From Candidatus Methanophagales archaeon (GTDB lineage: Archaea > Halobacteriota > Syntropharchaeia > Alkanophagales > Methanospirareceae): 36,444 nt of DNA. Both the position numbers and the translations under genes were made by a program. Below, one piece after another: positions 804 to 36,236 of the stretch. The DNA lies in contig QENH01000183.1 in the NCBI GenBank assembly GCA_003336485.1, positions 1 to 36,444 of the forward strand, given 5' to 3'. Under the pieces are notes generated by a model. The model did not search any database and was not told the origin of the DNA. It worked only from the letters and a program-made list of their open reading frames with translations. How positions within the stretch are numbered: position 1 is the first letter of the stretch; every line of letters begins with the position of its first letter.

Positions 804-2549
804 GTGATGAATGAAGTAGATTTGGAAAGTGGCGGAAAAAAGAATAATGGCAAAGAACATACGGAAAGGACTTTAAATATCTCTAATAACTCATGGATAA
901 ATAATGGTTTAATCGCCCTTGCCCAAAATTTGAGGGATTGGTTTGAAGATAAAGTAGATGTGAAATTTTATGAGGACTGTATATCTATATCTGGGCGGGA
1001 AGAAGAACTATATAATTCTATATCACAAGCTCTTCATAACCTTGCTGCTGAGGGGACATATAACTTTTCTACGGCATTTAAGATTATAAATAATGACTCA
1101 AATGCAAGTTATACAGAACCTAAGGCATATCCGGACAAAAAGGGAGATGGAAAAGTTACGATAGAAATTTCGGATTCTGAAAGAAAACTATTGAAAGATA
1201 AGAAGCAGTCTGATGGAAAGAAACAACAAATTTGGAAAATGCGAATGAGTTATTTTGGGTCAGAAGACAATTATCTGAAAATTGGGTTAGATCCTAAAGA
1301 TCAAGATGTCTTCGAAAAGTTAAGAAAATTTAAGAGTGGAAAGAATATCTGTCCAATATGTGGAACGTCTTCAAATACTATTATAGATATGAGACAGCGT
1401 TTCAATCCTTTTTCAGGAGAACATCACAATAATATTATCGAGGGTTTCAAATACGATGATAAAAACAGGAGATTTGATCCAGCAACCCATGGAAGAAAAT
1501 TAGTTCAAGCATGTCCAAAGTGCATTATTCTGTGTTATTTCGCCTTATTCAACTACTACATCCCTTTTTTCTATATCCCTGGGAACGAAACATATTTGGC
1601 AATTCCAAATACAGCAAATCTAGAAACGGTGAGGATAATAAACAATAACCTTTCCTTAAAGGGACAATATGTCGATTTTTCTGACCCTCAATGCCTTTCT
1701 TATTCAACCAATATCAGATTTTTGCCACATAAATCCAAATCTGCATCTATGCTTGCTTTGTTACATAATGTGAAGAATCGGTATTCTAAGATACCACCTG
1801 ACAAATTAAGTTTTTCTCCTTTTATGGAGGTTTCAAAAGAGAAATTTATAGATATGATCGAATGGCTATTTATTTCAAAGAATTCACATTCAATTACCCA
1901 CATACGAGCAAATGAAAAAGTTTATGAAATATTAAAACCCCTCAAAGATCCTCTAAACGAAGATGATGTGTATTTAGTTCCAGATGTCCTATGTAACCGT
2001 TCTTTCGATATATTTGATGAAAACGGTCTGGAACAATTCTATAATGGAATTTTAAAACTTGATACCAAAAAAATTTCCGAGGGATTATTCAGGATGGTAA
2101 AGGAAAGTATTTCTAAATCGAACAAAATTTGGATGATGTTTAGAGCTCAAGGAAGTTCACCACTCTTCCTATTTAAAGAAGTGGTTTTAGATAAAATAAT
2201 GGAGGTATCAACAATGTTGGAGGAAAACGTAAGAAAAGCATATAAAGAAGTGGCAAAAACCATAGGAAATGGCTTTAGCGAGGACGTCGGTATGATGACG
2301 AAGTTTGCATATGCTTCCAGTCCTGCAGATTTCAGAAATGCCATAGAAGATGCATCATTCAGGCTGGCAAAAACAAGTGCATTAAACAAAGATAAGAACT
2401 ATTGGCTGAGCGAAGATAGTATGGAAATGCTTTTTGGTTCTCTGGAAAGTGCAAAATTTGATGACATTAAGAGCTATTTCGTGGCATTCATGAGTGTCTA
2501 CGCACTTTCAGAGAATTATAAAAATAGGAAGAAACAAGGAGGTAAATAA
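804..2549 (+). CDS. cas8: Cas8, CXXC-CXXC (Cst1) type, type I-B Cascade large subunit
   Basis: This is probably the large subunit of the Cascade interference complex, which recognises the PAM and helps recruit Cas3. The 581-residue protein has two Cys pairs, CPIC at about residues 183-186 and CPKC at 237-240, the signature that gave the Cst1 'CXXC-CXXC' family its name. Overall similarity is too low to name it by motif alone; position decides: it opens a run of cas7, cas5 and cas3 in the order found in Tneap-type I-B loci. GTG at 804 and ATG at 807 are both possible starts; AAAGGAG at 790-796 fits either. The gene is A+T-rich like the next three genes and unlike cas1. Its stop codon sits 1 nt before the cas7 start codon, so the genes are translationally coupled. 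Confidence 0.82.
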   Translation: MMNEVDLESGGKKNNGKEHTERTLNISNNSWINNGLIALAQNLRDWFEDKVDVKFYEDCISISGREEELYNSISQALHNLAAEGTYNFSTAFKIINNDSNASYTEPKAYPDKKGDGKVTIEISDSERKLLKDKKQSDGKKQQIWKMRMSYFGSEDNYLKIGLDPKDQDVFEKLRKFKSGKNICPICGTSSNTIIDMRQRFNPFSGEHHNNIIEGFKYDDKNRRFDPATHGRKLVQACPKCIILCYFALFNYYIPFFYIPGNETYLAIPNTANLETVRIINNNLSLKGQYVDFSDPQCLSYSTNIRFLPHKSKSASMLALLHNVKNRYSKIPPDKLSFSPFMEVSKEKFIDMIEWLFISKNSHSITHIRANEKVYEILKPLKDPLNEDDVYLVPDVLCNRSFDIFDENGLEQFYNGILKLDTKKISEGLFRMVKESISKSNKIWMMFRAQGSSPLFLFKEVVLDKIMEVSTMLEENVRKAYKEVAKTIGNGFSEDVGMMTKFAYASSPADFRNAIEDASFRLAKTSALNKDKNYWLSEDSMEMLFGSLESAKFDDIKSYFVAFMSVYALSENYKNRKKQGGK

Positions 2550-2550
2550 C

Positions 2551-3630
2551 ATGGAAGAAAAATGTATCGTAGCGACTTGGTTGTTTAAGACAGACCTATC
2601 GAATCTGAATGCAGGGGAAGGGAGTACTAACCTAAAAGAACTAAAAACGTACAAAAGCGGGTTGCCGTATATCTCGGGACAATCCGTAAGGCATGCGTTG
2701 AGAGAAGCAATTCGAAGAGAGTATCCAGATAATTTCAGGTGTACTGTTGAGTTCCCGTGTGGGAATCTAAAAGACTGTTGGCTTTGTGACATGTTTGGAT
2801 ATCTATTGCCCAGCGAGGGGGCGAAGCGGTGGAGCCCAGTAAAAGCATCTCCTGCATTAGGACAGATTAAAAGTCCGGTTGCAACGGATATGATTCTTAG
2901 GCTTGTAAATGATATAGAATGTCCTCTGTGTAATGAAAAGATAAACCCACTGGTAAAGGGTGTACGGGAGGAAGGAAAGAAAGAGATTAAAAAAGGAGCG
3001 AAACTTAAATGCCCCAAATGTGGTAAAGTATTTGAAGCACCTTATGACATAAGACAGGCTATTGCCTACAAACAACTCATTGAGAATATTTACAGGGTTA
3101 GTGTATCCATAGATATATCGGCATTGGGTGTAGAAGAAGTGCCAATAATTGAAGGTAAAGGTACAAATGCTAAAATAATAGGGATCAAGTACAACGATTT
3201 GTATGGAAATAATAGTGAATCTGAGAGGAAAGGAAGAATCAGAGCTATTTTAGGTGCGATTTCTAATATCAGCGACTTTGCAAGTCAGAGCCGAGAATTG
3301 ACAAATGCTACACCAGACGTGATATTGCTGAGTATTCAGAAACAATACAACCATAGATTATCTTCTGCGCTGCAAATGGATGAAAAAGGATGCGTAAATC
3401 CTCAAATGTTCAAGGAGACAGTAGAAGATTGCTTAGCCATGCCTGGAACAAAAATTTATGCCGGGTTTATATCAGGAATCATCAATAACGAAGAGGATAT
3501 GATACCAATTCTAAATGATGCAGAGCTAAAAACGAAGGGTTTAGTTTTGTGTAATACACCGAGAGAAGCAATCCTGGAGGTAATCAAACTATTCAATGGT
3601 GAAACTATAAATGAAAATGCTAAAAATTGA
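2551..3630 (+). CDS. cas7: Cas7 (Cst2/DevR family), Cascade backbone subunit
   Basis: This is the backbone subunit that polymerises along the crRNA. The start at ATG 2551 is chosen because AGGAGGT at 2538-2544 lies at ideal distance; the track start at 2494 runs into cas8. The N-terminus contains NLNAGEGSTNLKELKTYKSG followed by the PYISGQSVRHALR segment, the conserved RAMP/Cas7 start in the DevR/Cst2 family. Two Cys pairs (CPLC about 124-127, CPKC about 154-157) enclose a basic 26-residue loop, suggesting a zinc-ribbon insertion in the thumb region. Length of 360 aa is usual or slightly long for the family. It overlaps cas5 by 20 nt. I see no defect in the gene. Confidence 0.9.
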   Translation: MEEKCIVATWLFKTDLSNLNAGEGSTNLKELKTYKSGLPYISGQSVRHALREAIRREYPDNFRCTVEFPCGNLKDCWLCDMFGYLLPSEGAKRWSPVKASPALGQIKSPVATDMILRLVNDIECPLCNEKINPLVKGVREEGKKEIKKGAKLKCPKCGKVFEAPYDIRQAIAYKQLIENIYRVSVSIDISALGVEEVPIIEGKGTNAKIIGIKYNDLYGNNSESERKGRIRAILGAISNISDFASQSRELTNATPDVILLSIQKQYNHRLSSALQMDEKGCVNPQMFKETVEDCLAMPGTKIYAGFISGIINNEEDMIPILNDAELKTKGLVLCNTPREAILEVIKLFNGETINENAKN

Positions 3631-4564
3631 CTTAAGAATACCTTTCTGGTGTTCTTTCACGCAATATGGAACAATGAATATACAACAAACTTATCTGTTC
3701 CCTCCACCACCAACAGTATTTGGAATGCTCCTCAACGCACTGGGAAAACCAGCAGCGCATACAATTACCGATGACTCTGCAAAACAACGGCTTATTGAGG
3801 AATATCTAGACGATTACTCTAAGTTACGATTTTCAATAGTCGTACGAGACATGGGAGAAAAAATCGATGACTACTTGAATATTTTGAAAGGGAATAGAAA
3901 AATCGAAGATGTAGAGGCGGATTTAAAGAATAAAATAACAGAAAAAATTGGATCGTTTGATGATTTAGAGATAGATAAAAAAGAACTCAATAAAATCACA
4001 AATAAATTGAAGAGGCGAGATATAGCTGATGAGTCCTTAAAAAACATCATGGATGTACTAAAACAAAAGGGTGCAACTATCAAGGAAATAACCGAACTCT
4101 TTGATTTTATTGAAAAATCTTGGCGATCATTACCCGATATATTAAAATACGAGATACGTAAATATTGGCTAAGGAGCCAGGTAAATCGGCAGAGACTGAT
4201 CCAACCGAGCTATACTATTTACATCCGATCTTCTGATGAATCCGGCGGTTATTCTCTGAACAGTCTTTCATCGCATCTAAGAAATCCTAAAAGGCCGTTA
4301 TATCTTGGCGAAAGCGATGGCATGGTTGAAGTTGGAATTAAGGGCGATGGCATAGTTGAAGTTGAAGATGACGTCTATACTTCTTCTAAGATCTCCTCTG
4401 TACTGCCCGGAATATATCAAAATACCCAATTGGTGAAGATACCCGTAAAACTGAGATACGACTCAAGTGAAAAACATAATCTATTGTGTTCCGTCCCACT
4501 TGGCGATATAGGGAAAAAAGTCCCTTGCAGTAACGTTTATGGTGAAAACATTGTCTTCCTATGA
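3611..4564 (+). CDS. cas5: Cas5 (Cst/Cas5t type), Cascade subunit
   Basis: Cas5 caps the 5' handle of the crRNA in Cascade. The N-terminus MKMLKIDLRIPFWCSF, followed by the aromatic/proline run LFPPPPTVFGMLLNALG, is the characteristic beginning of Cas5 proteins (the P-P-P-T-x-x-G-x-L stretch). Of its 317 residues, about 100 near the middle are strongly charged and likely helical (IDDYLNILKGNRKIEDVEADL region), an insertion compared with minimal Cas5 proteins. ATG 3611 and ATG 3617 are alternative starts. The gene overlaps cas7 by 20 nt upstream and cas3 by 26 nt downstream, so all four interference genes form one tightly packed unit. Confidence 0.85.
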   Translation: MKMLKIDLRIPFWCSFTQYGTMNIQQTYLFPPPPTVFGMLLNALGKPAAHTITDDSAKQRLIEEYLDDYSKLRFSIVVRDMGEKIDDYLNILKGNRKIEDVEADLKNKITEKIGSFDDLEIDKKELNKITNKLKRRDIADESLKNIMDVLKQKGATIKEITELFDFIEKSWRSLPDILKYEIRKYWLRSQVNRQRLIQPSYTIYIRSSDESGGYSLNSLSSHLRNPKRPLYLGESDGMVEVGIKGDGIVEVEDDVYTSSKISSVLPGIYQNTQLVKIPVKLRYDSSEKHNLLCSVPLGDIGKKVPCSNVYGENIVFL

Positions 4565-7058
4565 AGTTTTAGCAAAAAGTGACGGATGCACAACGTTAGG
4601 CCAACACACCGAAGATTGTGAATCGGTGCTTCACTATTTACTTTCAACGAATAAAGAGGTGCTGAAGAATTGGTGCAATCGCAATAGGGTAGATTTTGAT
4701 AAATTTCAGTTGGGTGCAGAATTAGCAACGCATTATCACGATTTTGGCAAAGCTACGGAAAAATGGCAAGAAGAGGCAAGAAAAGAAGTATCATCGCTTC
4801 CACCCCATGCTCCGTACTCAGGATATTTCCTACTTCAAGAGAATAAATGCAAAGATTTGGATGATTGTATTATTCCTTTTCTTACGGCTATTTCGCATCA
4901 TTCATTACTCACAGAATCCTCTTGGAGTAATTTGGGGTATCCCTCTAAGTTCTGCTTTGATTATTTGAAAGAGTTTAATAAAAACTCAGGATTTACATTA
5001 CCCTCTATTAATCTACCCTGGACAGATTATTTTAAATGGTTCGAGGATTATCAAAAGAATTGCCAGCGTCCAAGATTTAGAACAGTATGGGACGAGAATA
5101 AAACAATAAATACCTTATTTAAGGCGCGATATTGTCTTATGCTCTCCTTGTTTACGACATCTGATGGTGTCGCCAGCAGATTTGAAGAGGAGAATATAAC
5201 CAAGTCAGACAGAAGCATTAAGTTAAAAGAGTGGTTTCCATCGCCAAAAATGGTGTATCAGAAGATCAAAAATGTAGAGGGGCAAAAGGAATTAACAGAT
5301 ATACAGAAAGATATTTTAGGTTTATTTACACCATCTTTGTGTTTAAACGGATACATAAAGCCACTAAGAATTGAAGCCCCATGTGGTGAAGGAAAAACCT
5401 TGGCTGCTCTAATGTATGCAAAAGAGCTATTCAAAAACGAAATGATCAACAGAGTTATTTTTGTCCTTCCAACCCAAACAACAACCAACAACATGTTTTT
5501 CGAATTTGAGAATGAGTATGGCATTCCATCAGAGTGGATTGGGATATATCACTCAGAGGTGATGAGTTTCCTAATAGAAAAAGAAGAAGGAGAGGATAAT
5601 TCCAGTGATGCTTTTTCTATTAGTGATAAAAAATATTGGAGTGTTTTATATTCAAAACCGTTCAATATTTCAACGATAGATCATCTCTTGTTATCTCTCG
5701 TTAATGGCTATAAATACGCACCCAGAGCATTTGGGAATATACAGACCAGTCTTGTTGTAATAGATGAGATTCATTATTATGACTCGCATACGATCGGGAT
5801 GATTGAATGTCTTTGTGAGATATTAAGATACCTAAAAATCCCTCATATACTCATGAGTGCAACTATGCCAGAACAAGTAAAAGAAAAGTTTAGTGAAGAT
5901 TATATAAAAAGGAGGAGCAATGGGTTGGATGCAAAAGGCAATATGAAACAACCTTATAAATTCAGATATCACAAAGAACCAATATACGACTTGGAAAACG
6001 AAGTTTATTCCAACGCATTCATTGATTTAATACGTAACTCGCCAAGCCTCAACATTGGGATCATCGTTAATACTATCAAAAAATCAAAGGATATATTTAA
6101 CGAGTTGAAATCAAAATTCTCTAGGCGGCAGATATTGCTTTATAATTCCGAATTCATGCGCAAAGATAGACCGATCAAAGAGGATATTTTGAGAAAATTT
6201 GGTAAAGGCATAAAAACAGAACTAAAAAATGGTGAAATAGACTACTGTAAAAAGTTTGGTTTCGATCCAAATGAAAGTGTCATCTTTGTTGGAACACAAG
6301 TGGCAGAAATAAGCCTAAACATATCCTTTGATTTATTAATTTCAGATTTGGCGCCCATGGATTCGTTAATTCAAAGAGGAGGTAGGTTGCATAGAAGACA
6401 GAGCAAATTTATCGCTAAGGGATGTAATTGTAAGCAATGCAAAAGGCTTGATTTAGATTATGAGTACAACTTGCATATATTTGATACTGGCAAACTATGT
6501 TATCCGTATTATACTGTCGAAGATGATAAATTGATGGAAGAAGTCATAGAGAACACTAGAAAAGAAATCGCTTCTGAGCCTATTTATACATTCGAGAATG
6601 GGATAACGATGATGAATGAGGTATATAAAAATGAAAAATTGTTTAGGGTTTTTAATCCCAACGTCAGTTTTTGGAAACCATATAAAGAAGACCTTATCTT
6701 TGGAAAAAAACCGTTTAGAGATGAGGAAAAAGGAGGGCAGATGCGAATTATGACCAGAATAATAGATAGACAAAAAATTGATGTATTACCACAAATATTC
6801 GAATACGAAAACGAAGAAATAGCAGCAGGAATTTTCATTCAAAAGATACATACCGATAAAAGATTTGTAAAAAAAGGCAAATTGAATTCCTATGGTATTA
6901 ATGAAATATCAAAACATTTACTGAAAATCTCTCCTCAGAGGTATTCCTCTATAAATCGTGGCGAAGAGAATTTTATAGAATCATATAAATTCATCAGAGT
7001 TGTAAATCAAACATATACTCTCGAATCGGGGTTGCAGGATTTAGATTGTATCATTTAA
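4539..7058 (+). CDS. cas3: Cas3, HD nuclease-helicase
   Basis: Cas3 is the single-strand-specific nuclease and helicase that degrades target DNA after Cascade recruitment. The 839-aa protein has an N-terminal HD domain (H23, then THYHDFGK at about 64-71, then SHH) and a superfamily 2 helicase: Walker A CGEGKT at about 282-287, DEIH at about 409-412 (usual DEAH/DEVH box), SAT at about 438, and motif VI QRGGRLHRR from about 612. All key residues appear present, so interference could be functional. A CNCKQCKR segment just after motif VI is an extra cysteine patch. ATG 4539 overlaps cas5 by 26 nt; GTG 4542 is an alternative. Fusion of HD and helicase in one chain is the normal I-B form. Confidence 0.95.
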   Translation: MVKTLSSYEVLAKSDGCTTLGQHTEDCESVLHYLLSTNKEVLKNWCNRNRVDFDKFQLGAELATHYHDFGKATEKWQEEARKEVSSLPPHAPYSGYFLLQENKCKDLDDCIIPFLTAISHHSLLTESSWSNLGYPSKFCFDYLKEFNKNSGFTLPSINLPWTDYFKWFEDYQKNCQRPRFRTVWDENKTINTLFKARYCLMLSLFTTSDGVASRFEEENITKSDRSIKLKEWFPSPKMVYQKIKNVEGQKELTDIQKDILGLFTPSLCLNGYIKPLRIEAPCGEGKTLAALMYAKELFKNEMINRVIFVLPTQTTTNNMFFEFENEYGIPSEWIGIYHSEVMSFLIEKEEGEDNSSDAFSISDKKYWSVLYSKPFNISTIDHLLLSLVNGYKYAPRAFGNIQTSLVVIDEIHYYDSHTIGMIECLCEILRYLKIPHILMSATMPEQVKEKFSEDYIKRRSNGLDAKGNMKQPYKFRYHKEPIYDLENEVYSNAFIDLIRNSPSLNIGIIVNTIKKSKDIFNELKSKFSRRQILLYNSEFMRKDRPIKEDILRKFGKGIKTELKNGEIDYCKKFGFDPNESVIFVGTQVAEISLNISFDLLISDLAPMDSLIQRGGRLHRRQSKFIAKGCNCKQCKRLDLDYEYNLHIFDTGKLCYPYYTVEDDKLMEEVIENTRKEIASEPIYTFENGITMMNEVYKNEKLFRVFNPNVSFWKPYKEDLIFGKKPFRDEEKGGQMRIMTRIIDRQKIDVLPQIFEYENEEIAAGIFIQKIHTDKRFVKKGKLNSYGINEISKHLLKISPQRYSSINRGEENFIESYKFIRVVNQTYTLESGLQDLDCII

Positions 7059-7086
7059 CATTCATTCCTCAAACACATCAAGAACA

Positions 7087-7581
7087 ATGCCAAAAATAAC
7101 AGGCAACCTAATAAACGCATACTACGTATGCAAGAGGAAGTTATGGCTATACGCGCACGAAATATGACCAGATAGGAGCCACCAGCTATTAGAAATAGGC
7201 AGATTATACGATCAGAGCACATACAAAAGAGACAAAAAACAAATATCCATGTCCGGCATGAAAATAGACATATTAAAAAAGCGAGACGGCGAATTATTAG
7301 TAGGCGAAGTAAAAAAGACATCAAAATTTGAAGTAGCGGCGAAGATGCAGCTCGCATACTACCTTTATCGTCTGAAGGAACAGGGGATAGAACTGGACGG
7401 CGAACTGCTCGTACCGAAGGAGAAAAAAAGAGAGCGGATAACACTTGATGACGCTTTAACACAAGAACTTGAAACAGCAATCGCAGAAATAGAAACGATA
7501 ATAAATGGCGATAAGCCGCCAGTAGCAGAAAAGACGAAATATTGCGGCAAATGCGCATATGGCGACTTCTGCTGGTCGTAA
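7087..7581 (+). pseudogene. cas4: cas4 with in-frame TGA (adaptation exonuclease)
   Basis: From ATG 7087 the frame reads MPKITGNLINAYYVCKRKLW and so on, the standard Cas4 beginning with its first Fe-S cysteine (C15), runs into TGA at 7165-7167, and continues in the same frame to 7581. The downstream part has GEVKKTSKFE (PD-(D/E)XK nuclease E-V-K) and ends in CGKCAYGDFCW, supplying the other three cluster cysteines. Apart from the stop, the protein is complete at 165 codons. Cas4 trims prespacers and helps choose the PAM. The stop may be real inactivation, a sequence error or, less likely, readthrough. The gene lies between cas3 and cas1 with short gaps. The ORF track shows only the part after 7249. 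Confidence 0.85.
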
Positions 7582-7593
7582 ATAAAAATAAAA

Positions 7594-8586
7594 ATGAAAG
7601 AAACCATATATGTATTCTCACATGGCGAACTGAAGCGGCAGGCAAACACACTCTATTTCGAAGGTGAAAAAGGCAGGAAGTACATACCGGTAGAGAATAC
7701 CGCAGCGTTGATGATCTTTGGCGAAGTAACGATAAACAAGAAACTGCTCGAATTTTTATCGCAGAATGAGATACTGCTCCATTTCTTCAACTATTACGGC
7801 TACTACGTTGGTACATACTACCCGCGGGAACATTACAACTCCGGTTACATGATACTGAAACAGGCGGAGCATTACATAGACGACTCGAAAAGGCTAGGCT
7901 TGGCACGTAAATTCATCGAAGGTGCAAGTACGAACATACTGCGGGTACTGAAATACTACAACGCACGTGATTCCGAACTCGGAAGCAGCATAGCCGAGAT
8001 AGAGACGTTGCAGGCTAAAATACCGATGCAGAACGGTATAGCGGAGTTGATGGCGATAGAAGGAAACATCCGTGACCGGTATTATAGCGCGTTCAACGCG
8101 ATAATAAAGGACGAACGGTTTTATTTCGATAGACGTACGAAACGGCCACCTAGGTCGAAACTGAATTCACTCATTAGTTTCGGTAATAGTCTGCTCTATG
8201 TCGCAGTGCTGGGCGAGATATACAAAACGCATTTGGACCCACGGATAGGTTTTTTACATGCCACTAATTTCAGACGCTTCTCTTTGAATCTAGACGTAGC
8301 CGAATGTTTCAAGCCGATAATAGTAGACAGAGCCATTTTTTACCTGTTGAATAAACAGATGCTCAAAGAGACACATTTCATGACTGAGTTGGAGAAGGTA
8401 TATTTAAACGAAAAAGGGCGTGCAGTTTTCGTTAGAGAGTTTGAGGAGAAGTTGAAATCAACGATAAAGCACGATAAGCTGAAACGAAACGTATCTTATC
8501 GTAGGCTTATACGGATGGAGTTGTATAAGCTGGAGAAGCATCTTATGGGTGAAGCCGAGTATAAGCCGTTTGTCGCGAGGTGGTAG
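7594..8586 (+). CDS. cas1: Cas1, spacer integrase
   Basis: Cas1 catalyses integration of new spacers at the leader end of the array. The 330-aa product starts ETIYVFSHGELKRQANTLYF, typical of I-B Cas1. Candidate metal ligands are E in AELMAIEGNIR, H in DPRIGFLHATNFRR, and an acidic residue in the LDVAECFKP segment, matching the E-H-D/E triad of the family. ATG 7594 follows cas4 by 12 nt, and the gene ends 4 nt before cas2. Codon use is visibly more G+C-rich than in cas8-cas3, suggesting the adaptation and interference modules may have different histories. No defect is visible here, unlike the genes on each side. Confidence 0.95.
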   Translation: MKETIYVFSHGELKRQANTLYFEGEKGRKYIPVENTAALMIFGEVTINKKLLEFLSQNEILLHFFNYYGYYVGTYYPREHYNSGYMILKQAEHYIDDSKRLGLARKFIEGASTNILRVLKYYNARDSELGSSIAEIETLQAKIPMQNGIAELMAIEGNIRDRYYSAFNAIIKDERFYFDRRTKRPPRSKLNSLISFGNSLLYVAVLGEIYKTHLDPRIGFLHATNFRRFSLNLDVAECFKPIIVDRAIFYLLNKQMLKETHFMTELEKVYLNEKGRAVFVREFEEKLKSTIKHDKLKRNVSYRRLIRMELYKLEKHLMGEAEYKPFVARW

Positions 8587-19197: not shown

Positions 19198-20148
19198 ATG
19201 GCTGCGGTTAATAAATATGTATTTCCAAGTAACAGTACATGCTATTGTGCAGAATCAATAACCGAAGAAATCATGGAGATATATTCATCCCTCAAGGGAC
19301 TTAAGGATGATGTGATATATCAAGACCCTTCGAATCATCTAAAGACCGTGTTTCAAAGACTGGACTATCTGATTGCACAGGATATAGATGATGAATCAGC
19401 AGAAGCGATCCTCTCTAATTCTGAATTTAATTCTGCTCTTGATGTTATCACGCGGTTTAGAAGCATGTATACCGCGAAATTGGAAATTGAACATACAAAA
19501 TCCATACTAAAAAGCAGCGACTCATGGGAAGTCCTCAAAAATTTTGCATATCTTCCCAATTACCTTCAACTGGCACAGACAGAGTATCAGGGAGCTGGGC
19601 TTAGACCAGGCGACTGTGTACTGTTTCTTGGAAGCGGACCTCTACCTATAAGTCTTATAGTGCTGTGTCATCAGTATGGACTCAGAGGGATCGGGATTGA
19701 ACAGGAACCCGACAGAGCGGAACTTTCAAGAAGAGTGCTGGCGAAACTGGGGCTTTCTGATCAGATAAGAATAATCGAGGGAAACCATTCGACACTGCCC
19801 TTAAAAGAGAGGACCGAGCTTATCATGGTAGCCGCGCAAGCGGAACCCAAGAAGGAAATCTTCGATCATCTGGCAAATGTTTTGCCGACGGAAACAAAAA
19901 TCTCCTATCGACTCTATGATAAGGGTCTTAGAAGGCTGTTGGACACTTTTTATCGTTATGAATTACCTGAACCGTTTGAGGAATATCTCAGGGTCCGACC
20001 AAAACCGCCTGCCAACAATACCGTTGTGTTTCTAACTACCAATAATATTGGGTATATCTCAACCACTGACGGTCAGTTAAGCGAGAGATGCCTAACATTT
20101 AACGATGAAGAGATGCAGGATATAACCCAATCGCCGGAGATATGTTAA
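19198..20148 (+). CDS. Nicotianamine synthase-like enzyme, copy 1
   Basis: Nicotianamine synthases transfer aminopropyl groups from S-adenosylmethionine to make nicotianamine or, in archaea, glutamate-capped thermonicotianamine, a chelator of Ni and Fe. The 316-aa protein has an N-terminal helical part with EIEHTKSIL near 97-104 (candidate region of the catalytic Glu), the FAYLPNYLQLAQTEY segment (NAS pattern Y-x-x-N-Y-x-x-L-x-x-x-E) at 116-130, and a Rossmann core starting LFLGSGPLPISL at about 142-153, the family's most distinctive motif, followed by GIGIEQEP. A C-terminal extension after FLTTN is absent in the other copies. First of three tandem intact paralogues directly after the nickel transporter. 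Confidence 0.85.
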   Translation: MAAVNKYVFPSNSTCYCAESITEEIMEIYSSLKGLKDDVIYQDPSNHLKTVFQRLDYLIAQDIDDESAEAILSNSEFNSALDVITRFRSMYTAKLEIEHTKSILKSSDSWEVLKNFAYLPNYLQLAQTEYQGAGLRPGDCVLFLGSGPLPISLIVLCHQYGLRGIGIEQEPDRAELSRRVLAKLGLSDQIRIIEGNHSTLPLKERTELIMVAAQAEPKKEIFDHLANVLPTETKISYRLYDKGLRRLLDTFYRYELPEPFEEYLRVRPKPPANNTVVFLTTNNIGYISTTDGQLSERCLTFNDEEMQDITQSPEIC

Positions 20149-20260
20149 AGCCTCCATTGACCGGGTCGTAATTTTTGCCTGATGATTATGCTTTATTTAT
20201 TTTTAAATTAACCAGTATCTATCGGAATTATTAATTACTGTACTTCTTTTATTATATTTT

Positions 20261-21133
20261 ATGGCTGCGATTAATAAAAACGCACTTCTGAGTAATAGTA
20301 TGTGTAATTATGCAGAACCAATAATTGGAGAAATAAGGGAGATATATTCTGCGATCAAGGGTCTTACGGATGTAGAGATATATCAAGATACTTCGAACCA
20401 TCTTAAGACCATCTTTAAACGATTGGACTATCTGATTGCACTGGATATATCAGATAAACACGCAGAAGAGCTCCTCTCGAATTCCGGATTGAAGGTAGCA
20501 TTTGATGTTATTGCCCGGTTCAGAAGTACGTATATTGCGAAATTGGAAATTGAACATGCAAAAGCCATACTAAAAAGCAGCGATTCTTGGGAAGCGCTAA
20601 AAAATTGGGACCATCTACACAATTACCTTCAACTGGCACAGACGGAATATCTGGGCTCTGGGCTTAGACCTGGTGACTGTGTCCTGTTTCTTGGAAGCGG
20701 ACCACTGCCTATCAGTCTTATAATTCTTTGTCGTCTGTATGGACTAAGAGGGATCGGGATTGAACAAGAACCCGACAGAGCGGAACTTTCAAGAACGGTG
20801 CTGGACAAATTAGGGCTTTCTGATCGGATAAAGATAATCGCGGGAAACCATTTTTCAGTGCCCTTAGAAGAGCGCCCCGAACTGGTCCTGGTAGCCGCGC
20901 AAGCGGAGCCCAAAAGGGCTATCTTTGATCATTTGGCTAAGGTTCTCCCCGCGGGAAGAAAGGTATCATATCGTATCTATGAGAAAGGGCTTAGAAAGTT
21001 GTTGGATACCTTTTATCGTTATGAATTACCTGAACAGTTTAAGGAATATCTCAGGGTTCGGCCAAAACCGCCTGCCAACAATACCGTGGTTTTTCTGACC
21101 ACACGGAGCCGTAAAAAGGGCAAGTCTGAATGA
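20261..21133 (+). CDS. Nicotianamine synthase-like enzyme, copy 2
   Basis: A close paralogue of copy 1 over its full length (same MAA-N-K start, same EIEHAKAIL, NYLQLAQTEY, LFLGSGPLPISL and GIGIEQEPDRAELSR motifs). At 290 aa it lacks the C-terminal extension of copy 1 and ends in RSRKKGKSE. It has its own A+T-rich upstream region and no Shine-Dalgarno, so a separate leaderless transcript is likely. The upstream region is not related to the block before copies 1 and 4. Both copies keep all motifs, so they may be redundant or make products with different numbers of aminopropyl groups; that is speculation. Confidence 0.85.
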   Translation: MAAINKNALLSNSMCNYAEPIIGEIREIYSAIKGLTDVEIYQDTSNHLKTIFKRLDYLIALDISDKHAEELLSNSGLKVAFDVIARFRSTYIAKLEIEHAKAILKSSDSWEALKNWDHLHNYLQLAQTEYLGSGLRPGDCVLFLGSGPLPISLIILCRLYGLRGIGIEQEPDRAELSRTVLDKLGLSDRIKIIAGNHFSVPLEERPELVLVAAQAEPKRAIFDHLAKVLPAGRKVSYRIYEKGLRKLLDTFYRYELPEQFKEYLRVRPKPPANNTVVFLTTRSRKKGKSE

Positions 21134-21292
21134 ATACCGCTTATCATGGCAAAGGCGGTATAATAAGGAGCTTGAACGGATGAAAACGGATTAAGAATGA
21201 CTTTGAGAGGCTATAAGAACTAACTTTAATAAAGTAATAATTAATTATGTTTTAATAGATGTAAGTAATATTATAAAGGGGGAAGTAACATT

Positions 21293-22102
21293 ATGGGCCA
21301 TTCGCGACAATCAATAATTAACGAACTAGGGCGAATATATTCAATGACAAAAGATCTTAAAGATCAAGAAATCCTTCACAGCCATTCGAATCACCTTAAA
21401 ACATTTTTTCAGCGATTGGACTATCTGGCTGCACTGGATGTAGATGACCGATTAGTAGAAGATATCGTCTGCAAACTTGGATATAACCCCGCACTTGAGG
21501 CTATTGTCAGATTCAGGAATCTATATAGTTTGAGGCTCGAAATCGAAAATGCAAATTCCATACTGGCCAGTAGAGCTCCATGGGAAGTACTAAAAAAATT
21601 CACCCATTTCTCAAATTATACTCAACTGGCTCGAACCGAATGTCAGGGAGCTGAACTAAAACCCGACGATAATGTTATTTTTCTTGGCTGCGGACCATTG
21701 CCTTTAAGCCTTATAATGCTGTGCCATCAACATGGACTTAGAGGAATCGGAATTGAACAGGAACCGGAGAGGGCAGAACTATCAAGAAAAGTGCTGCAGA
21801 AACTGGAGCTTTCTGATCAGATCAAGATAATCGCGGGAAACCATTTCACATTACCCCTAAAAGAGAAGCCCGAACTTCTCATGGTGGCTGCAGCAGCAGA
21901 ACCCAAAAAGGAGATAATTGATCATCTGGCTATGGTGTTGCCTGAAGGAACAAAAATAACCTATCGAATTTATGAGAAAGGGCTTAGAAGATTATTGGAA
22001 AACTCTTCTTTTACTGAATTGCCTGAACAGTTTAAGGAATATCTCAGGATCCGACCTGAACCACCAGTCAACAATACCGTTGTATTTCTTACCTCTCTTT
22101 GA
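21293..22102 (+). CDS. Nicotianamine synthase-like enzyme, copy 3 (divergent)
   Basis: The most divergent of the intact copies, at 269 aa. It lacks the first 20 or so residues of copies 1 and 2, has GCGPLPLSL instead of GSGPLPISL, and FTHFSNYTQLARTEC instead of YLPNYLQLAQTEY. The acidic helix (EIENANSIL) and GIGIEQEPERAELSR are kept. Unlike copies 1 and 2 it has a Shine-Dalgarno-like aaaggggga before ATG 21293. Its stop codon lies inside a short relic of nikK sequence (see 22095-22169), so its 3' end was set by a rearrangement. The substitutions at ligand-binding motifs suggest a changed substrate or product. Confidence 0.83.
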   Translation: MGHSRQSIINELGRIYSMTKDLKDQEILHSHSNHLKTFFQRLDYLAALDVDDRLVEDIVCKLGYNPALEAIVRFRNLYSLRLEIENANSILASRAPWEVLKKFTHFSNYTQLARTECQGAELKPDDNVIFLGCGPLPLSLIMLCHQHGLRGIGIEQEPERAELSRKVLQKLELSDQIKIIAGNHFTLPLKEKPELLMVAAAAEPKKEIIDHLAMVLPEGTKITYRIYEKGLRRLLENSSFTELPEQFKEYLRIRPEPPVNNTVVFLTSL

Positions 22103-24025: not shown

Positions 24026-24577
24026 ATGGCTGCGATTCATAAAAATGGGCGCCTGAGTAATAGTATGTGCTATTATGCAGTAGAATCGGTAACAGAAGAA
24101 ATAATGGAGATCTATTCTGTAATCAGGAGCATTTTCGCATATATCCCCAATTACCTACAACTGGCTAAGACCGAATATCAAGGATCACCGCTTAAGCCAG
24201 GAGACAATGTTCTCTTTCTCGGTAGCGGACCACTACCTATCAGTCTTATAATTCTTTGTCGTCTCTATGGGCTAAGAGGGGTCGGGATAGAGCAAGAACC
24301 AGACAGGGCAGAATTGTCAAGAATTGTGTTGCAGAAACTGGGATGTTCTGATCAGATCAGAATAATCGAGGGGAACCAGTATACGTTGCCCATGATAGAG
24401 AAGTTTGAACTCATCATGGTAGCGGCACAAGCGGAACCCAAAAAGGCGATCTTTGATCATCTGGCAGATGTGCTGCAATTTTGTTTTTATCTTGCTTTGC
24501 AGGAACAGCATCTGCGAGAACATTGTCTGTTGATGATAGCGGCGGGGCAAATTTTACGAGGATACAAGATGCAATAA
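24026..24577 (+). pseudogene. Nicotianamine synthase-like copy 4, internally deleted and 3'-truncated
   Basis: The frame begins like copies 1 and 2 (MAAIHKNGRLSNS) but about 80-85 residues between IYSVIRS and IFAYIPNYLQL are missing, an in-frame deletion that removes the EIEHAK helix thought to hold the catalytic Glu. The Rossmann core with LFLGSGPLPISL and GVGIEQEPDRAEL is intact up to IFDHLADVL at about 24474; beyond this the translation (QFCFYLALQEQ...) is a shadow of the beta-helix gene in another frame. The C-terminal third is thus lost. It cannot be an active synthase of the normal type. Confidence 0.8.
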
Positions 24578-28791: not shown

Positions 28792-29370
28792 ATGGAACTG
28801 AGACAGATAACAGAGCAAAATCCGTGGTGGGAAGACAAAGAGCGAATAAACGAGGACGAAAAGGTAAGGGGAGCCGTATCAAAACGGCAGAAAATTGAGT
28901 TTGCGTTAAAAACGAGAATAGCAAAAGAATCGGCAGAGAGTGAAGACGTAAAACTACTCATGGGTATTCCTGGAGTGAATTACTACACGGCACTACTACT
29001 AACGAGTGAGATAGGCGATTTCAGCAGGTTTTCAAGCGCAAACAAGCTTGTCAGTTGGTTAGGTTTAGCGCCAAGGGTTCATCAGAGTGCGAATACGATC
29101 TACAACGGCAGAATAACAAAAGAAGGGTCACCGAGGGTGAGGTGGGCTCTGGTACAAGCAGCTCGATCTGCAGTTCGGTGGTTGTTACTTCTCATTTCGC
29201 CTTTTCTATTGGCTTTAGATGTTCTAATGGCATTATTAACAAGAAACGTAGAGGCTCTAATATCTGGATTGTCGGGGTTATTGGGTTTATTAGGTTTATT
29301 AGCAGGGATGTTTTTCCCCTCTGTTTTTTCTTGGTGGGTTAAACAGAGGCTCACGCGAAAAATCGAATGA
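28792..29370 (+). pseudogene. Chimeric ORF: AAA+ ATPase N-terminus / IS110 transposase C-terminal domain / hydrophobic tail
   Basis: Residues 1 to about 37 (ITEQNPWWEDKERI, then EDEKVRG) look like the start of archaeal DUF4143-type AAA+ ATPases. Residues 55-129 are the Transposase_20 domain of IS110-family elements: LLMGIPGVNYYTALLLTSEI, FSSANKLVSWLGLAPRVHQS, and GSPRVRWALVQAARSAVR. The DEDD catalytic half of an IS110 transposase is absent, so it cannot transpose. Residues 130-192 are hydrophobic with a GLLGLLGLLAG repeat and match nothing I recognise; this may be out-of-frame sequence. The ORF has a TATA box and may be expressed, but I treat it as debris of recombination. The junction points are estimates. 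Confidence 0.65.
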
Positions 29371-31141: not shown

Positions 31142-32161
31142 CTATGTGCGATTTTTGTACATTTCTATGAAATTGATAAAATCATCTTTAAGTCCCGGAA
31201 TAAATTCCTCTGGTGGGATCAATTTTAATTCCTCTTCGCTAACCCATCGGATTTCCGAGTGATTTTTAGATTCCTGAGTACCCGCACTGTAAAGGCACAA
31301 GAATTTTATCCCCGGTATCAACGGTTCATTTGGCTCTTTTATTTCATAAAAATTGTGGATACGCTCTATTACATCAACATCTATATCCATTTCTAACCGA
31401 AAGTGTCTTTTCACACCATCAATAAGAGCTTCCGAATATGCGAGTTGGCCGCCACAGCCCTCATATAGCCCTGGATACAGCTTTCTGTTCGTTTCTCTTC
31501 TTGCTATTAATGCCATTATATTGCCTTTCGCAATCTTTATACATAAACCTGCAACATGAATCTCCGGTGCTTCACGCATTTTTTCTCGTGGTGTAAACAA
31601 AGTGGCTATTTCGTCCGTTACCCAAACCTTAACATCACCTACTATACCTCCAAGTTTTCTCGTCTGTGGCCTAAAATTATATGTTGTGTCCCGTGGCAAA
31701 GTAGGAAAATCATCCTTTTCTATTACTATACCAAAAGGTCTGGCAATACCGCATAATCGAGCACATTTGTTGATATTTGCACCAATAAAATCACCGTTCA
31801 GCTTTTTAACAACACCTCGCACTAATCCCCAGCCCAAATGACGTTCTGTCCGATATCCATATGATTTAAAAAAATCGTTACACAAGTCTTTAAATTTCGC
31901 CTCAACCTGCCGAAGTTTATCTAAATTCTTGGTCAACATGTCTACTACCGATTCAATTGTAACATCAGTTTCTATTACTTTAACCACCATTGCGCCATCT
32001 CCAAGTTTCTTTAGGTATATCTCTGGCGGAAATTGTTCTTTTAGGATGTCACAGAATTTATTAATGAATATGTCAATATATTGAAAAGCTTCTATACCTT
32101 TGGACCATTTCGTAAAACCGCGAATATCTGTGAAAAGTACAATTGCGTTTGTTATCTCCAT
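31142..32161 (-). CDS. Class III nucleotide cyclase domain fused to a degenerate Nudix domain
   Basis: Residues 1 to about 180 are a cyclase homology domain: VLFTDIRGFTKWS with metal ligand D12, KKLGDGAMVV with D55, and DFIGANINKCARL with N131 and R135, which match the transition-state Asn and Arg of class III adenylate/guanylate cyclases. Both metal sites are kept. Residues about 205-335 are a Nudix fold: CGGQLAYSEALIDGVKRHF aligns to G-x5-E-x7-R, but the following REUXEEXGU core is RHFRLEMDI, so two of three catalytic Glu are lost and hydrolysis is doubtful. The Nudix part may bind a nucleotide or ADP-ribose-type ligand as a sensor. The protein is soluble, 339 aa. Start ATG 32161. Confidence 0.8.
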   Translation of the reverse strand: MEITNAIVLFTDIRGFTKWSKGIEAFQYIDIFINKFCDILKEQFPPEIYLKKLGDGAMVVKVIETDVTIESVVDMLTKNLDKLRQVEAKFKDLCNDFFKSYGYRTERHLGWGLVRGVVKKLNGDFIGANINKCARLCGIARPFGIVIEKDDFPTLPRDTTYNFRPQTRKLGGIVGDVKVWVTDEIATLFTPREKMREAPEIHVAGLCIKIAKGNIMALIARRETNRKLYPGLYEGCGGQLAYSEALIDGVKRHFRLEMDIDVDVIERIHNFYEIKEPNEPLIPGIKFLCLYSAGTQESKNHSEIRWVSEEELKLIPPEEFIPGLKDDFINFIEMYKNRT

Positions 32162-32200
32162 ATTTCATCCCCGATACCATCTTTATGGCTTTGTTTTTAT

Positions 32201-32228
32201 TTTCTTTCTTTCTTTCTTTCTTTCTTTC
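32201..32228. repeat. Tetranucleotide microsatellite (TTTC)7, GAAA on the gene strand
   Basis: Seven perfect tttc units lie 40-67 bp upstream of the cyclase-Nudix start codon, between it and the TATA-like gttttatataac (reverse strand, about 32255-32268). The tract falls in the 5' untranslated region or just after the transcription start. Confidence 0.9.
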
Positions 32229-32591
32229 TATTTATCTATAGTTTAAGAAGAATAGTTATATAAAACTATCGCAAGTAACAAAATTAGTGTAGCAATCCTA
32301 AGGAAACTACCAGTAAATAGTTTACCCTTTTTGATAATTTAAAAAGCGCTACTCTACTTTAAATCTGCGTTAAGCGTACCTTCAGGCGCTGTGATGATTC
32401 GATAAAAAGTCGCTGTTAATAAGGTATCTTCTCCTCAGAATTCTCTTTTATCTCTGATCTATGTCGGACAATAGACGTTTCTTCAGTTCGACTGGATTTG
32501 ATTGTATTCGGTCCTCTTTTTTGAGTCAGAACGGCGTAACGTTTATTTATTCTGATATTTCTGCTATTTCTGTGCATAATACAAATTTTTA

Positions 32592-35423: not shown

Positions 35424-35458
35424 TGTCTTTATAATTGTAAGTAGGCTTTATATAATTG
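35424..35458. promoter_or_regulatory. Shared promoter region grpE / CPBP gene
   Basis: Only 35 bp separate the outermost start codons. tttatata at 35447-35454 reads as a TATA box in the forward direction, and attataaag-like sequence reads in the reverse direction, so the two promoters must overlap. The exact initiation sites cannot be fixed from sequence. Confidence 0.4.
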
Positions 35459-36236
35459 ATGAAATTACAGTTAAGAAAATCGTTCCAAACGCTGTTCATA
35501 CTCCTGATATTCGTGGGGATCATTGTCACGGAATGGGTATTTGTGTATGAGAATGTGGGCTATGGCATCATGCTCGCCCTGTTTATGGTGCTTGCAATAT
35601 ACACAGTCGTCTCTGTGACACAACCGAATAGACATTTTTCGGATTCTGCAGAATCTCTTGCTCTTCTACCACTCTATATATTATTTACGTCCTCGCTTCC
35701 CTGGTTCTTTATAGATCAACAGTTCCTTATCCCTGCGGTGTATTCCCTCATTATCGTTCTTTGTGGTTGGTACATCTATGAGAAAGACATTAGCTTAACC
35801 GAGATCGGGTTTAAAAAGGATAATCTATTGGGATACATATTGCTGCGCATGTATAGGAATACCAACAGGAACTATCGAGTACTTCATTCTTTTGCCTGCA
35901 CCTGCATATCCTATCTTTGAATTCAAATACTTGTTTAGAGACCTGATTTACATGACCTTTTTCGTGGCACTGGGAGAGGAGGTGCTATTTAGGGGGCTTG
36001 TTCAGCGCAACTTGACGAAGATGTATGGATGGGGAATTGCTTTATTAAGCACAGGATTCCTTTTTTCTGTGATGCACTTAACATGGCGGTCCGTTCCCGA
36101 GCTCGGATTTACCTTCTTTGCCGGCATTCTGTTTGGATATATTTATTATAAGACTAAAAGTCTCGTAGCACCTATTGTTCTGCATGGGGTCAATAATGTG
36201 ATGCTAGTAGCAATAATGCCGTACGTATTTAGTTGA
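35459..36236 (+). pseudogene. CPBP-family intramembrane protease (CAAX/Abi) with frameshift
   Basis: Two ORFs (35456-35920 and 35892-36236) make one membrane protein of about 260 residues if the frame is shifted near 35840-35855. Before the shift: four or so hydrophobic helices and EKDISLTEIGFKKDNLLGYI; after it, in the second frame, GIPTGTIEYFILLPAPAYP leads into the conserved core. The core has EEVLFRG (E-E-x-x-x-R), FSVMHL and HGVNN, the metal-binding and catalytic motifs of CPBP proteases, with hydrophobic helices between. Function may be processing of prenylated or membrane peptides. The ATG at 35459 is preferred to TTG 35456. One indel, natural or technical, separates the halves. Confidence 0.8.

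Follow-up and report, generated by a model that had tools for sequence, protein, structure and literature searches.

Class III Cyclases and Nudix Domains

Class III nucleotide cyclases are regulated by many kinds of sensor domain. A protein encoded in the window analyzed here (the whole stretch of DNA studied, 36,444 nucleotides of a contig from a Candidatus Methanophagales archaeon) shares with the class III enzymes Rv1264, Cya2, CyaC, CyaB, and Ma1120 the fold of the cyclase homology domain (CHD), the two metal Asp residues, and the Lys/Asp and Asn/Arg pairs. Known class III cyclases have regulatory domains of other kinds (N-terminal, receiver, GAF, PAS, etc.), whereas in this fusion the CHD comes first and a Nudix domain follows; the CHD of the fusion is also scarcely detected by Pfam, unlike that of the known enzymes.

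With MutT/Nudix hydrolases (MutT2, RppH, and MTH1; PADLOC PDC-S07), the fusion has in common the fold, the spacing of the Nudix box, and the equivalents of Glu44, Arg52, and Glu57, but throughout the fusion family Glu53 is replaced by His, Glu56 is lost, and a cyclase is attached. In Nudix sensors such as NrtR and the NUDT9H domain of TRPM2, an altered box is likewise tied to an output module, which is DNA binding in NrtR and a channel in TRPM2, as against a nucleotide cyclase in the fusion. The NUDT9H domain was reported to bind ADP-ribose without hydrolyzing it (PMC4974056). A winged-helix DNA-binding domain of the NrtR type is absent from the fusion, the partner of its Nudix domain being the CHD. 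Class III cyclases gated by ligands have been described, as have Nudix domains of the sensor type, and the combination of the two is apparently new: our search of non-subscription literature found no report of a class III cyclase with a Nudix partner.

Domain Architecture of the Fusion Protein

The first-pass annotation had proposed a nucleotide cyclase domain fused to a Nudix domain, and sequence profiles as well as predicted structures back both halves: the protein is a class III CHD joined to a C-terminal Nudix domain (Table 1). Its open reading frame begins with ATG and has no internal stop codon. Pfam Guanylate_cyc (E=0.011, 15.8 bits, cut-off 21.9) and Pfam NUDIX (E=0.0011, 19.4 bits, cut-off 21.1) both score just under threshold, so that routine annotation could miss the CHD and the Nudix domain alike; a homologue from Methylobacterium lies above the cut-offs for both. 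A five-row family profile run against the PDB matched solved cyclases (AC5, sGC, and CyaB) and MutT proteins. Structure prediction, which had been proposed as a check, gave a concordant picture, in that Foldseek placed the full-length model with class III cyclases (E of about 1e-11 to 1e-9) and the Nudix half alone with M. smegmatis MutT2 (dCTP, 5-methyl-dCTP), RppH, and NrtR (ADP-ribose), among others, from E=8e-7. The Nudix domain proper spans residues of about 200-332, and its model has a Nudix fold at moderate confidence (pLDDT 65); the full-length model (pTM 0.54) does not fix the placement of the two domains relative to each other.

Table 1. Features of the CHD-Nudix fusion gene, in window coordinates
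Feature	Position	Strand	Basis or remark
CHD-Nudix fusion gene	31142..32161	-	339 aa + stop; sole full-length copy in genome
Class III cyclase homology domain (CHD), residues 1-187	31601..32161	-	Pfam, profile vs PDB, Foldseek
Metal Asp D12 (FTDIRGF)	32126..32128	-	Family alignments
K51, adenine-type base-specifying Lys (Asp55 minus 4)	32009..32011	-	Alignment; role from PMC4215837
Second metal Asp D55 (KKLGDG)	31997..31999	-	Alignment
D124, second adenine-type base-specifying residue (Asn131 minus 7)	31790..31792	-	Alignment; role from PMC4215837
N131, transition-state Asn	31769..31771	-	Alignment
R135, transition-state Arg (Lys in L015)	31757..31759	-	Alignment
Linker, residues 188-199	31565..31600	-	Flexible; low model confidence; pLDDT <50 at residues 190-203
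Nudix domain and C-terminal helix, residues 200-339	31145..31564	-	Pfam/NCBIfam/PADLOC, Foldseek of half alone
Altered Nudix box GQLAYSEALIDGVKRHFRLEMDI, residues 238-260	31382..31450	-	Alignment
H253, replacing catalytic Glu53 (MutT numbering), invariant in family	31403..31405	-	Alignments
E257, retained Glu57 (MutT numbering), invariant	31391..31393	-	Alignments

Family Members and Distribution

An architecture search, which had also been suggested as a check, yielded four further full-length CHD-Nudix proteins, all with the same domain order: those of Candidatus Methanoperedens (L014, 59% identity), 'Armatimonadetes' bin.262 (L015, 54%), the Methylobacterium aquaticum megaplasmid pMaq22A_1p (L012, 43%), and a second genome in the phylum of L015 (L034). 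Two pieces were found in the window's own family, namely a C-terminal piece lying on the edge of its contig (L003, about 70% identity) and a 36-residue N-terminal piece (L004, 78%) next to a transposase fragment where its contig ends. In the scan of genome contigs, a single-sequence query found nothing and a two-row alignment query recovered the family.

The fusion is rare: counting the window genome, 3 of 394 genomes of the phylum carry it, as do 1 of 34 genomes from the Methanoperedens family, 2 of 125 from the phylum of L015, and 1 of 72,556 plasmids. No copies were found in phages and viral contigs, and two bacterial class samples, of 385 and 369 genomes, also yielded none; having no known positive, these samples only suggest rarity. 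The high similarity across domains of life despite this patchy occurrence suggests, at the level of sequence comparison, that the family spread by horizontal transfer; trees of the CHD and Nudix halves have too few rows and too long branches to date or prove transfers. Other CHD matches (L016-L029) were rejected as family members, as they have no recognizable Nudix half. Among them, L016 (8001-9125) and L017 are Nitrospirota CHD proteins with ~30% identity to the fusion CHD and a different, uncharacterized C-terminal domain.

Catalytic Residues and Expected Product of the Cyclase Half

The first-pass annotation held that both metal Asp and the Asn/Arg pair are kept, and the alignments bear this out (D12, D55, N131, and R135), with K51 and D124 present besides. 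D12, K51, D55, and N131 occur in all five full-length members, and D124 and R135 in four of five each, D124 being Glu in L034 and R135 being Lys in L015. The cyclase activity that the annotation had considered possible is, judging from these retained residues, probable. Another explanation is that the CHD is inactive and that the protein merely binds nucleotides or rides mobile DNA as a passenger, as the two substitutions and the scattered occurrence near IS elements and phage-like genes might suggest; however, all six catalytic residues are intact in the window, L014, and L012 copies, and both the CHD and the Nudix half are constrained at the protein level, and we consider such a pseudo-cyclase improbable.

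In Ma1120, K101 and D157 specify ATP (PMC4215837). When the fusion is aligned with AC5 and Rv1264, K51 and D124 fall on these positions, which leads us to expect ATP as substrate, and the product is most likely cAMP. The ATP specificity stays a prediction, since Lys also serves substrate recognition (K104) in one clade D uridylate cyclase (PMC11224242). Archaeal class III cyclases are few, and most archaeal cAMP synthesis is without an assigned enzyme (PMC8646023); their rarity, stated in the annotation, is also seen in our comparison, in which 2 of the 59 related genomes have a Pfam CHD match. The window genome also encodes, on contig C116 (L039, 1423-2202), an ordinary CHD cyclase of 259 aa that exceeds the Pfam cut-off. 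Together with the fusion, it gives this genome two class III cyclase-type genes, where most relatives show none.

An Altered but Conserved Nudix Box

The canonical hydrolase box, Gx5Ex7REUXEEXGU with its catalytic Glu residues, is not matched by the window Nudix half, which has G238, QLAYS, E244, ALIDGVK, and then R252-H-F-R-L-E257-M-D-I260. In MutT numbering, Glu44, Arg52, and Glu57 are retained, and Glu53 is changed to His, Glu56 to Leu, and Gly59 to Asp. The segment R52-H53-[F/Y]-x-x-E57 is fixed in the six copies for which the box is available, with position 56 varying among Leu, Ser, and Asn. The longer pattern G-x5-E-x7-R-H-x3-E is likewise present in six of six, and the spaced motif arose in 19 of 20,000 shuffled versions of the Nudix half; the recurring pattern is not due to chance. 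The box had been called degenerate in the first-pass annotation; two catalytic Glu are indeed lost, but the change is uniform, not random decay, and the third Glu of REUXEE (Glu57) is kept.

In most comparisons, the Nudix half equals or exceeds the CHD in conservation, with identities of 57-61% vs. 41-60% for L014, L015, and L034 and 48 vs. 39% for L012. The changes between the window and L003 are mostly synonymous (pN 0.157 vs. pS 0.622). Together, these observations indicate that the altered Nudix domain is kept by selection, and its invariance across phyla under strong purifying selection strengthens the idea of a sensor. Comparison of the copies favors a retained ligand-binding role over decay, and a domain that binds a ligand without hydrolysis, for which NUDT9H of TRPM2 offers an experimentally tested precedent, would be the simplest reading.

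From MutT enzymology, a Nudix domain lacking the Glu53 and Glu56 equivalents should be crippled in canonical catalysis. Some hydrolysis could nevertheless be supported by the conserved His and Glu, and the protein may then be a bifunctional enzyme whose Nudix half still hydrolyzes, with its metal site rearranged (His253, Glu257, and Glu244), and removes an NTP, a pyrophosphate-type product, or a signal made or used by the CHD. That His253 is invariant and not drifting, that the Glu44, Arg52, and Glu57 equivalents are retained under strong selection, and that the closest folds are active pyrophosphohydrolases such as MutT2 would all agree with this explanation; the disappearance of both the Glu53 and Glu56 equivalents, position 56 being unconstrained in the family, makes it unlikely in our judgment, although it deserves consideration. 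In type I IPP isomerase, the catalytic Cys sits directly ahead of the box Gly. IPP isomerase chemistry was rejected, as this position is Gly237 in the window protein and Gly in the other copies.

Proposed Mechanism

We propose, as a reading with about an even chance of being right, that the fusion proteins constitute a rare family of soluble class III cyclases switched by a Nudix domain that binds, but does not hydrolyze, a nucleotide-type ligand. The enzyme would act as a soluble homodimer, as other class III enzymes do. Its Nudix domain has lost canonical hydrolase residues while keeping the fold and part of the Mg/phosphate site, and through this reduced site it would bind the nucleotide-like ligand; binding would then turn the CHD homodimer on or off and so set the rate of the cyclase. 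We observe the fusion and its retention in distant lineages, the catalytic positions of the CHD, a uniformly changed box, selection acting on the Nudix half, and two defense neighborhoods; cyclase activity, product, dimerization, ligand binding, and gating are steps that we infer. If the Nudix half gates the cyclase, the protein would link a nucleotide-type metabolite directly to a cyclic-nucleotide output. The fusion protein is small, soluble, and encoded by a single gene, and hence, cyclase and ligand assays should be straightforward.

Defense Loci and Mobile DNA

The Methanoperedens copy lies 138 bp past an HmaB-like DUF1156 methylase and 18 bp ahead of an HmaA-like SNF2 helicase; the first gene of this operon encodes a DUF499/HmaC ATPase. 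It resembles the genes embedded in Hma, a Type-1 BREX-related, DUF499 defense system, as a single instance between HmaB and HmaA. Genes embedded in Hma operons have served to nominate defense genes, some of which were validated (PMC12988326). The text of a 2026 DUF499/BREX survey mentions neither Nudix nor cyclase (PMC12839542). The Hma-like operon (L014, 2904-5324) also has a DUF7680 gene, an HD phosphohydrolase, and a gene weakly similar in PADLOC to the C-terminal part of DarG. Upstream of the L015 fusion are a DNA methylase, a Bpu10I endonuclease, and two small uncharacterized ORFs, and downstream it overlaps a radical-SAM gene by 4 bp. Embedding in an Hma operon and a restriction-modification neighborhood were seen in one genome each (L014 and L015, respectively), and the window copy lies outside both kinds of locus. 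A terminase-small-subunit-like gene is also present on the L035 contig, and the L012 copy neighbors only an IS1595 transposase. Such surroundings are consistent with a mobile accessory gene, and they may point to, but do not establish, a role in defense.

More weakly, we infer a role in antiviral signaling, with an infection-altered nucleotide as the ligand. An immune module, in which the non-hydrolytic Nudix domain detects an infection-changed nucleotide (e.g., a dNTP that is modified or out of balance) and thereby gates the synthesis of a cyclic nucleotide, embedded in or neighboring DNA-modification defense systems of archaea and bacteria, is a tentative extension that we hold to be rather doubtful. 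If true, it may represent a new nucleotide-sensing alarm, rare across distant archaea and bacteria.

A CHD cyclase in or near defense loci recalls Pycsar, and an antiviral cyclase of this type, making cUMP or cCMP for an effector elsewhere in the genome, was considered. Besides the location of some family members in defense loci, a weak PADLOC match to PycC in L015 (E=1.5e-4) and the Lys-based substrate recognition of the clade D uridylate cyclase speak for it. However, the match of PycC to the window protein is weaker (E=0.042), the Lys/Asp pair is of the ATP type, and the fusion differs from Pycsar in having a Nudix domain and no effector partner: a PycTIR/PycTM-type partner is annotated at none of the window, L014, L015, L035, and L012 loci (the two small L015 ORFs have no assigned function), and no cyclic-nucleotide-binding effector adjoining any copy was identified. 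We therefore give this explanation little probability. PADLOC PDC-S07 was discarded as evidence of defense, as canonical MutT scores 1e-47 and the full-length copies 1e-9 to 1e-13; the match indicates no more than a MutT-like domain. On a Priestia plasmid (L041, 1-1554), a canonical MutT of this kind is flanked by a restriction endonuclease and a DUF3578 gene.

Metabolic Neighbors of the Window Copy

The first-pass annotation took the nearby nadE and ade genes as a hint that NAD or purine metabolites are the signal. A housekeeping regulator sensing such metabolites would accord with the position of ade, which begins 25 bp downstream of the fusion gene on the same strand, and with the presence of ADP-ribose-binding NrtR among the fold matches. 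Nevertheless, ade is common in relatives (a clear match in 23 of 29) and never adjoins the fusion gene there: apart from the window genome, none of those 23 has the fusion gene, nadE, or dnaK in the roughly 1.5 kb of flank covered. The neighbors of the homologues are unrelated and the gene is sporadic in its phylum. The hint is thus not sustained, and a housekeeping role seems to us hardly probable, in comparison with the ligand-switched cyclase proposed above.

Several further features of the window were recorded. A remnant of an IS110-family transposase lies between nadE and ade (28792-29370), and a TTTC tetranucleotide run (32200-32235) immediately precedes the start of the fusion gene. A CRISPR-Cas operon that includes Cas3 and Cas1 (804-8586) is situated about 22 kb from the fusion gene. 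Three tandem similar ORFs of about 270-316 aa (MAA(V/I)NK...EEI.EIYS...) occupy 19198-22102, with a fourth, partial one near 24026, and a probable CPBP/CAAX-type membrane protease gene at 35456-36236 is apparently frameshifted into two overlapping ORFs.
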